Source: Kordia sp. TARA_039_SRF
Lineage (GTDB): Bacteria > Bacteroidota > Bacteroidia > Flavobacteriales > Flavobacteriaceae
DNA length: 64,000 nucleotides
Assembly: GCA_006383075.2 (NCBI GenBank)
Contig: SMNH02000003.1
Span: forward strand, 550,496-614,495
Direction of reading: 5' to 3'
Shown here: in pieces, positions 6,156 to 45,323 of the stretch
Layout: every line of letters starts with the position of its first letter
Position numbering within the stretch: the stretch's first letter is position 1
Made by a program: the position numbers and the translations under genes
Notes under the pieces: generated by a model
What the model saw: only the letters and a program-made list of their open reading frames with translations
Told to the model about the DNA's origin: nothing
Database searches by the model: none

Positions 6156-6556
6156 GTTTTTTAATGTGTCAATGTGATAATTTGAAAATGCACCAATGAC
6201 TTTTGAATCTCTTATAAAATATCGTCATTGTCAGATTGAGTGATTTTTCAAAGAAAAATTGTATCGAAATCTGCTAGGAAGCACTAATTTTTCAAAGCAC
6301 TTCTCGATACAGTTTTTCTCCGCTCCGCTAAAAAAAGCACTCGAAATGACGGCTATTTTAATGTGTAAATTTGAAAATGTACCAATGATTTTTATTTAAG
6401 ATTGAAAATGCACTTCGTCAAGCTGAACTTGATTCAGCTTCTCACAAATAGCTAAAATTCTAACAGCAAAGCAATCTAACCATCTAAGTGCAAAGCACCT
6501 CTAGAATCTAGCAGCAAAGCGGTCTAGCTTCTAACAGCGAAGCGAATCTAAAAAAC
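6156..6556. repeat. repeat-rich intergenic region (copy 1 of a three-module set)
   Basis: No credible gene. It holds, in order: (i) two copies of a string close to AATGTGTCAATTTGAAAATG ending in CCAATGA (near 6164 and 6359; the first carries a six-base insertion); (ii) a 129-bp imperfect inverted repeat containing TCTCGATACA and CACTCGAAATGAC; (iii) the words AAAGCGGTCTA (6516-6526) and AGCGAAGCGAATCTA (6536-6550). The same three modules, in the same order, fill the gap at 43819-44099. Confidence 0.75.
6223..6351. repeat. 129-bp imperfect palindrome (REP/MITE-like)
   Basis: The ends are CGTCATT and AATGACG. Inside, GAGTGATTTTTC and AAAAATTGTATCGA on the left are matched in inverted form by TCTCGATACAGTTTTTCT and AAAAAAAGCACTC on the right. 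The whole element could fold into one long imperfect hairpin. No transposase is present. A related single arm occurs at 43905-43944. Confidence 0.7.
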
Positions 6557-43808: not shown

Positions 43809-43836
43809 CAAAGATACGTTTTTTTTAATGTGTCAA
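43809..43836 (-). promoter_or_regulatory. Bacteroidota promoter of the isoprenoid operon, TTG-N17-TATCTTTG
   Basis: On the minus strand, TTG at 43836-43834, a 17-base spacer and TATCTTTG at 43816-43809, 19 bases before the ATG. The -33 TTG lies within the first intergenic repeat module, so the repeat supplies part of the promoter. Confidence 0.75.
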
Positions 43837-44099
43837 TTTGAAAATGTACCAATGAAGCAATGGCTTCTTTTTTTTAGAAACTACAATTAGTTTATCAAAG
43901 TATATCTCGATACAATTTTTCTCTGAAAAATCACTCGATATGACATTTTGGTTAGACATCTTAGATTTTTAGACTGACTTAGATTTTCTTCTAATAAGTC
44001 TAAAAGCCAAAGCGGTCTAAAATTAGGTGTTAGGTTTTGGGAATTAGGCATTAGTCAAGTTCAAAAAACTTAATTTTTAAATTGAGCGAAGCGAATCTA
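43819..44099. repeat. repeat-rich intergenic region (copy 2 of the three-module set)
   Basis: It holds the same modules in the same order as 6156-6556: AATGTGTCAATTTGAAAATG ending CCAATGA (near 43829), TCTCGATACAATTTTTCTC followed by CACTCGATATGAC (43905-43944), then AAAGCGGTCTA (44009-44019) and AGCGAAGCGAATCTA (44085-44099, 15 of 15 identical). It also contains TTAGGTGTTAGGTTTTGG (44023-44040). No gene is visible in the 322-base gap 43790-44111. Confidence 0.75.
44023..44040 (+). repeat. TTAGGTGTTAGGTTTTGG string (copy 2)
   Basis: 18 of 18 bases identical to the minus-strand copy at 20818-20835. Both copies are intergenic. Confidence 0.6.
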
Positions 44100-44111
44100 C
44101 TATCTCAATAC

Positions 44112-45323
44112 TCACATCTCAATACTATTAGCAATCACAAAACTTCCCGTCCATGCATTTTGAAAGTTAAATCCGCCCGTAATGGCGTCAATATTTAGAA
44201 TTTCGCCTGCAAAATAGAGGTTTTTATGTTTTTTACTTTCGAAAGTTTTAAAATTGACTTCTTTCAAATCGATTCCGCCAGCCGTTACAAATTCTTCTTT
44301 GAAGGTACTTTTGCCTTTTACTTGAAAAATAGCTGTTGTAAGTTGATTGGCTAATGCTTCTGTTTGTTGTTTGTTTACATCTGCCCAACGTGTAGTTTCA
44401 TCAATATTTGCAGCTTGTACAATGCGTTGCCACAAACGTTTTGGCAATTCGAACGGATTGTTTTTTTGAACTGTTTTTTTAGCCAATTGTAATTTATAAT
44501 CTTTCAAAAGTTCTATGCATTCTTGTCGTGAAACGTGGTCTAACCAATTGACTTCTATTTGAAAATCGTAATTTTTATCCGCTAAAATTCGTGCGCCCCA
44601 CGCGGAAAGTTTTAAAATACCTGGTCCGCTCATTCCCCAATGTGTGATGAGCAACGGACCGTTGGATTCCAATTTTGTATCAACCACTTTTACAGAGGCT
44701 GGTGTGGCAATTCCGAGTAAATCTTTGATACGTGCATCTTTGATATTGAACGTAAACAACGATGGAACCGCAGGAACAATGGTATGTCCGAGCGTTTCTA
44801 GTAGTTTCCACATTTTAGGATTACTGCCTGTCGCAAGTACTATTTTATTCGTTTTCAACATTCCTTGACTCGTCTCTACATGCCAAATATCATTTTCTTT
44901 CGAAATATGTTTGACTGCATGATTTTTTCTGAAATCGACTTGATATTTTTTTGCTTCACGCAGAAAACAATCAATAATCGTTTGCGAAGAATCGGAAACT
45001 GGAAAAATTCTGCCATCGTCTTCAATTTTCAATGGTACGTCGCGTTCTTCAAACCAGCCCATTGTATCGCCACAACAAAACTGATGAAAAGGACCGAGCA
45101 GTTCTTTTTCGCCACGCGGATAATGCTGAACCAATTCTTTCGGGTCAAAACAAGCATGCGTTACATTGCAACGTCCGCCGCCAGAAATTCTGACTTTCGT
45201 CAAAAATTCTTTTCCGCGCTCCACAACCACCACAGAGGCTGAAGGATGCTTTTCCGCAATGTTTATCGCTGTGAAAAATCCAGCTGCGCCGCCGCCAATT
45301 ATGAGAACGTCTATGGGTTGCAT
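44112..45323 (-). CDS. BaiN/HI0933-family NAD(P)/FAD-dependent oxidoreductase
   Basis: 403 residues. The FAD-binding fold starts at 'VLIIGGGAAGFFTAINIAE' (GxGxxG). It is followed by 'KVRISGGGRCNVTHA', the family's second flavin contact, and ends with 'GGFNFQNAWTGSFVIA'. 'THWGMSGPGILKLSAW' in the middle is also conserved in this group. The family includes BaiN-type flavoproteins and RdsA-like reductases; the physiological substrate here is unknown. It is a single gene, transcribed towards the repeat-rich gap. Confidence 0.9.
   Translation of the reverse strand: MQPIDVLIIGGGAAGFFTAINIAEKHPSASVVVVERGKEFLTKVRISGGGRCNVTHACFDPKELVQHYPRGEKELLGPFHQFCCGDTMGWFEERDVPLKIEDDGRIFPVSDSSQTIIDCFLREAKKYQVDFRKNHAVKHISKENDIWHVETSQGMLKTNKIVLATGSNPKMWKLLETLGHTIVPAVPSLFTFNIKDARIKDLLGIATPASVKVVDTKLESNGPLLITHWGMSGPGILKLSAWGARILADKNYDFQIEVNWLDHVSRQECIELLKDYKLQLAKKTVQKNNPFELPKRLWQRIVQAANIDETTRWADVNKQQTEALANQLTTAIFQVKGKSTFKEEFVTAGGIDLKEVNFKTFESKKHKNLYFAGEILNIDAITGGFNFQNAWTGSFVIANSIEM

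Follow-up and report, generated by a model that had tools for sequence, protein, structure and literature searches.

The window, i.e. the whole stretch of DNA that was analysed (64,000 nucleotides from Kordia sp. TARA_039_SRF), contains two gaps between genes, one bordering the TyrRS gene (site A, 6156-6556) and the other lying ahead of the mevalonate operon (site B, 43819-44099), in which three intergenic repeat modules, hereafter modules i, ii and iii, are found (Table 1). When one gap was compared with the window by BLAST, module i matched between the two sites over 33 nt (97% identity, E 9e-11) and module ii over 39 nt in inverted orientation (92% identity, E 1.4e-9) and also over 19 nt (95% identity), while AGCGAAGCGAATCTA was identical at 15 of 15 positions and AAAGCGGTCTA at 11 of 11. 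The words which the initial annotation reported as shared by the two gaps are indeed present at both, and above chance, but the forms listed there need correction. An exact AATGTGTCAATTTGAAAATG occurs only at 43827, site A having instead two variants, one lengthened by an 8-nt unit (6163) and one with a single mismatch (6360), and the single module ii copy given for site A is one half of an inverted pair. The true order is i, ii(-), ii(+), i, the CGTCAAGCTGAACTTGATTCAGCTT word and the iii array at site A, and i, ii(+), iii at site B; the common order i-ii-iii thus emerges only when site A is stripped of its second i and its first ii. No Rfam family match was obtained at site A, at site B or at two other loci.

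Table 1. Repeat features of sites A and B (positions in the window; CM R1, covariance model R1 of module ii).
Feature	Position	Strand	Details
Site A, first module i	6163..6199	+	array of ~8-nt units AATGTGTC AATGTGAT AATTTGAA AATGCACC AATGA
Site A, module ii copy 1	6222..6281	-	inverted half of tags-outside pair; arms CAGA/TCTG; CM R1 52.4 bits, E 4e-9
Site A, direct repeat ATTTTTCAAAG	6243..6253		partner at 6287-6297; intervening 44 bp absent in sister species G002
Site A, module ii copy 2	6290..6358	+	arms CACT/AATG; enlarged inner hairpin; 3' end GACG (CGTC tag on the minus strand); CM R1 57.7 bits, E 1.7e-10
Site A, second module i	6360..6388	+	at fixed spacing behind ii (AATGTGTAAATTTGAAAATGTACCAATGA)
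Site A, dispersed word CGTCAAGCTGAACTTGATTCAGCTT	6416..6440	+	often comes after module i
Site A, module iii	6458..6550	+	array of ~24-bp period, TCTAACAGCAAAGC...; last word AGCGAAGCGAATCTA directly before the TyrRS stop codon
Site B, module i	43827..43855	+	minus-strand TTG at 43836-43834, 17 nt from TATCTTTG (43816-43809), both preceding the downstream operon
Site B, module ii (single copy)	43893..43952	+	arms TATA/TATG; stem ATTTTTC TCT GAAAAAT; CM R1 76.7 bits, E 1.7e-15; at this spot common to G002 alone among the congeners compared
Site B, module iii word AAAGCGGTCTA	44009..44019	+	of the congeners compared, only G002 has a near-identical word
Site B, module iii word AGCGAAGCGAATCTA	44085..44099	+	directly before the stop codon of 44112-45323

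The nearest named relatives of the TyrRS belong to the Flavobacteriaceae. Pattern and profile searches of the genome that holds the window (G000; 4.59 Mb in 27 contigs) do not single out these two distant sites: module i gave 81 pattern matches versus 1 for a reversed-pattern control (60 loci after merging), module iii gave 31 versus 1 (29 loci), and for module ii the covariance model R1 gave at least 150 copies, each at E <=6e-4. According to the initial annotation, the three modules are remnants of one composite element, mobile or amplified and now decayed. All three are indeed found within 600 bp of one another, but at only six sites of the genome, among which both order and orientation differ (the orders include iii(-) ii i ii(-), i iii ii i iii, and iii ii i). 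Only ii and i are constant partners, 25 of the 60 module i loci lying directly behind a ii copy at a set distance, whereas module iii has a ii copy within 500 bp at only 12 of its 29 loci; genome-wide, copies of the modules are mostly separate. Orthologous gaps of congeners tell the same way. At site A, G010 and G008 carry module i alone, right behind the stop codon, and G004 carries a ii pair of a different subtype, with neither i nor iii. At site B, module i is in place in G003 without ii or iii, and i, ii and part of iii are common to G000 and G002. Gaps that lack ii do exist in relatives, and within the genus the modules come and go separately.

On the strength of these gaps and of the genome-wide co-occurrence counts, we rejected a fixed i-ii-iii composite, and common descent of the modules from a single element is very improbable; what stands of that proposal is the ii-i pair with its fixed spacing and the high-copy, REP-like character of ii. 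Each of the two gaps is a mosaic of its own, put together from dispersed intergenic repeats, in which modules i (an array of 8-nt units) and iii (an array of ~24-nt units) would arise, spread and decay separately, module i often riding right behind ii. The intergenic DNA of this genome contains further dispersed words, with CGTCAAGCTGAACTTGATTCAGCTT, CATTCAGCATTCAACATTTAAAA, TCAATACTCACTACTCATATCTC and GCAGGAATC present in many gaps (loci L185-L250) and CATTTCGACAAGCTCAATG nested within long ii loops.

The proposal that module i provides the -33 TTG of the mevalonate operon promoter at site B is consistent with the position of the minus-strand TTG relative to TATCTTTG (Table 1), both being read against the general promoter consensus of Bacteroidota. 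As an independent repeat, module i probably supplies this predicted -33 element in some species only, because the congeners that were compared all have the -7 box, whereas module i with the TTG was seen in G000, G002 and G003 only.

Module ii has the frame xyzTCTCGATAC-(inner hairpin)-CACTCGAz'y'x'GACG. Its anatomy and covariation were studied in 22 copies, picked by their flanking words alone and aligned without gaps. The outer arms, in which columns 9-12 pair with columns 47-50, are followed by a two-nucleotide bulge and an invariant TCGA/TCGA helix, the outer stem consisting of 3-4 bp, the 2-nt bulge and 4 bp, with a second pair that is mostly C-G or G-C. Beyond an invariant internal loop (TACA / CAC), the 16-43 nt between TCTCGATAC and ACTCGA are folded as a second hairpin, with an inner stem of 7 bp and mostly a TNC triloop. 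Of 150 copies, 91% have GACG at the 3' end, which on the minus strand is a CGTC tag, and 8% have GACA (TGTC); the plus strand has TTTCAAAG at the untagged end. Searches of the open-access literature brought up no description of such a repeat.

In the 22 copies, paired cells amount to 96.4%, the covariation score is 0.572 (shuffles, 0.159; slid versions, no more than 0.166), and all seven inner pairs vary on both sides. Among 149 parsed copies, 114 inner sequences are distinct, yet they are nearly always self-complementary: their inner stems comprise 1007 Watson-Crick, 5 GT and 8 mismatched pairs, a count in which the choice of the best register somewhat favours pairing. In a fixed register, 94% of pairs are formed in the 59 distinct inner sequences of 19 nt, versus 51% when arms are shuffled. 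G-U pairs are nearly absent (2 GT among the 602 inner-stem pairs of this 19-nt class), and non-Watson-Crick inner pairs point to no single strand. Arm types and stem types combine almost freely (MI 0.148 vs 0.082 +/- 0.031, p 0.03). Folding of single sequences was mostly uninformative, since AT-rich shuffles fold about equally well.

Copies of module ii are found at gene 3' ends, either alone or in tags-outside inverted pairs. Counting long open frames, rather than curated annotation, as genes, 98 clusters have genes on both sides, 39 of them in convergent, 57 in tandem and 2 in divergent gaps (about 21 divergent expected). In a control of 400 kb, convergent and divergent gaps account for 13.5% and 21% of intergenic bases (P = 1e-10 and 2.5e-8, respectively). 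Of 45 pairs of close neighbours, 25 are arranged '-+' (tags outside), the distances between them clustering near -1 and 7 bp, and 16 are arranged '+-'. In tandem gaps, the transcribed strand is not favoured (32 same vs 47 opposite; for singletons 16 vs 28, p 0.10), and a strand-specific terminator was rejected on this lack of orientation bias.

Matches to the module ii model were obtained throughout the genus, where each of the 11 genomes has between 4 and at least 91 copies, in 13 of 26 other sampled genera of the family, and in four genomes from three other families of the order. Copies in other genera keep TCTCGATAC...CACTCGA and covarying arms around an inner part that is self-complementary but different in sequence, although the model itself favours matches of this kind. 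Copy number differs strongly within the genus, G008 (4.0 Mb) having only 4 copies versus at least 91 in several congeners. A RAYT or another transposase had been put forward as a candidate mover. The only Y1 transposase gene of G000 (C5:264452-264997, or L072:1447-1992) is flanked by a palindrome of its own, GGAGCGAGTTTGCAACTCGTTCC, which is unlike ii and occurs in two copies genome-wide. This gene is RAYT-like, with NHLH, WQ and YIHNNP motifs, and resembles subclass 2.6; it is a REPtron without dispersed REPs. At E<=1e-3, Y1_Tnp had no match in G002 and G004 (at least 91 ii copies each), G010 (73) and G009 (31), and ii copy number in these genomes does not track transposase presence. A Y1 transposase is not needed for ii, because none is detectable in G002 and G004 despite their high copy numbers. 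The RAYT was thus rejected as the mover of ii, in view of its own two-copy palindrome and of the ii-rich genomes without Y1_Tnp, and no dedicated transposase for module ii was found.

Comparison with a sister species (1.6 Mb of G002, with flanks about 90% identical to those of G000) provides evidence on how individual copies change. As the 400-kb C3/C1 stretches were syntenic over ~100 kb only, copies were mapped flank by flank, and 28 of 102 clusters could be anchored on both sides (24 in an earlier pass). Both genomes are drafts, orthologous copies are few (about 20), and stems were assigned as kept or replaced by eye from the alignments. The stem type is kept in 12 orthologous copies (C2:223786, C2:382523, the first of C3:101875, C3:193104, both of C3:238607, site B, the plus copy of site A, both of C10:67794, C16:15660, and the plus copy of C16:17735), while an unrelated stem is found in about 8 (C3:15205, the second of C3:101875, C3:102927, C3:131622, C5:162716, C5:194908, the plus copy of C5:232499, and the minus copy of C10:65551). 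The inner hairpin alone differs at C3:102927, C3:131622 and C5:162716, where the arms and the flanks are kept on both sides, one example being AAATTTGCTTCATTTCGACAAGCTCAATGAGCAGCAAATTC versus ATTTTTCTTTCAGAAAAAC; several of the other replaced stems have one flank kept. Replaced copies retain their orientation, and several replacement stems are identical to, or closely resemble, stems found elsewhere in G000. In the inverted pair C5:314581-314831, the two stems are in swapped places relative to G002, as expected from an inversion between the arms. Genus-wide, the C3:131622 gap contains ii only in G000, G002, G004 and G006. Assembly error is an unlikely cause of stem replacement because the element (60-80 bp) is shorter than usual reads.

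In the 24 orthologous gaps of the earlier pass, ii is kept in 16 and absent from 8 in G002. The surroundings of the absences are ragged, usually with other changes, and no duplication was recognised; a clean ii insertion into an otherwise identical empty site, with target duplication as in a MITE, was not seen in any of the orthologous gaps. At site A, a deletion between the 11-bp direct repeats ATTTTTCAAAG (6243-6297) has left G002 (orthologue L299) with only one half of the inverted pair. A second difference from site A, of 31 bp, lies between GAAAATG repeats.

Perfect stems with compensatory changes are commonly taken as proof of a selected RNA structure. For module ii, this would be an element acting in mRNA 3'-end protection, processing or termination, with an invariant loop that is recognised and a stem under purifying selection and compensation. 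The location at gene 3' ends is consistent with such a role, as are the invariant TCTCGATAC / CACTCGA, which stand beside covarying helices across genera and families. However, neither the tandem gaps nor the non-Watson-Crick pairs favour a strand, G-U intermediates are nearly absent, ii is missing from about a third of orthologous gaps in the sister species, and wholesale replacement is not stepwise compensation, all of which makes an RNA element rather unlikely. Alternatively, ii may be a classical RAYT-mobilised REPIN; stems that differ at one site would then go back either to separate insertions at a hot spot or to an ancestral pair of which different members survived. Module ii does resemble REPINs in its tags-outside inverted pairs, its high copy number and its intergenic position at 3' ends, REPIN stems also show compensatory changes (PMC3116915), and a RAYT-like gene is present in G000. 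As this gene is flanked by an unrelated palindrome of its own, as the four congeners without Y1_Tnp have from 31 to at least 91 ii copies, and as replaced copies keep their orientation (and both flanks in three cases), we consider mobilisation by a RAYT improbable.

On balance, we think it probable that the gaps are mosaics of independent repeats and that ii is a CGTC-tagged, REP-like palindrome, presumably devoid of a cellular function, whose inner hairpin is replaced or rewritten through its conserved arms. A DNA-level process acting via these arms would best account for the wholesale replacement at fixed positions, the scarcity of G-U intermediates and the free combination of arms and stems. 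The exchange may occur by short-homology template switching or by ectopic conversion at a stalled hairpin, after which orthologous copies would keep their flanks and arms and gain a different stem. Against such an exchange, arm homology (~20-25 nt per side) is short for RecA-type conversion, no precise insertion into an empty site was seen, and selection for an RNA- or protein-binding hairpin would also yield perfect stems. More tentatively, ii could be a two-storey REP with an exchangeable cassette as its inner hairpin; self-complementary stems would then be swapped among hundreds of dispersed frames, by a process that is either dedicated or coupled to replication, while frame and position remain fixed. 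If true, this would represent a class of within-genome palindrome reassortment that is not described for REPs in the open-access literature.

CGTC REPs, which are known from five phyla including Bacteroidetes (G. forsetii being among the CGTC-positive species), have stems of 8-9 bp with A-T pairs at the first two positions, loops of 4-5 nt, a CCA-like tail, a 3'-end location, tags-outside dimers, TT dimers being rare, and no dedicated transposase (Di Nocera et al. 2013, PMC3733652). Similarly, ii has a CGTC/TGTC tag at one end and a palindromic stem, is intergenic at gene 3' ends in convergent or unidirectional gaps, and has no dedicated transposase among our findings. Tags-outside (HH) dimers, which predominate in CGTC REPs, account for the 25 '-+' pairs of ii, but the 16 '+-' pairs show that tags-inside arrangements are not rare here. 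In addition, ii differs from CGTC REPs in having an invariant internal loop and a second, variable hairpin in place of the 4-5 nt loop, and an outer stem that is shorter and interrupted, with a second position that is usually not A-T, and no CCA tail. We therefore call ii a new variant of CGTC REPs, set apart from the four described families by its second hairpin, its interrupted outer stem and the lack of a CCA tail. With REPINs or BIMEs and their RAYTs (PMC3116915, PMC6006769), ii shares inverted doublets with a near-fixed spacer, extragenic location, high copy number and compensatory stem changes. Unlike them, it has no GTAG tag at the hairpin foot and no RAYT flanked by ii (in the L072 flanks that were read), the RAYT-like gene of G000 having its own palindrome.

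Template switching is reported to create and maintain perfect hairpins (PMC8794818). As in such hairpins and in quasipalindrome mutagenesis (PMC7202029), stem changes in ii are concerted on both sides, with no unpaired intermediates. However, in those events one arm of a hairpin is copied onto its partner arm, whereas in ii whole stems of another type appear in a conserved frame, for which the possible donors number at least 150. A REP-like family of Flavobacteriales whose nearly perfect stems are replaced wholesale without a change of place points to a mutational or recombinational process able to mimic the signature of RNA selection, and ii offers a natural test bed for the change and spread of CGTC-tagged REPs, which are without a known transposase. 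Module ii may also be likened to the double-hairpin elements of organelle (mitochondrial) genomes, which are mobile, nested or double hairpins with compensatory stem changes. Finally, tandem or near-regular arrays of ii are found in congeners (G003:C1:5466616-5467014, G001:C22:61618-62281 and G003:C1:129402-130623), one congener array having a 113-bp period, and suggest local tandem amplification.
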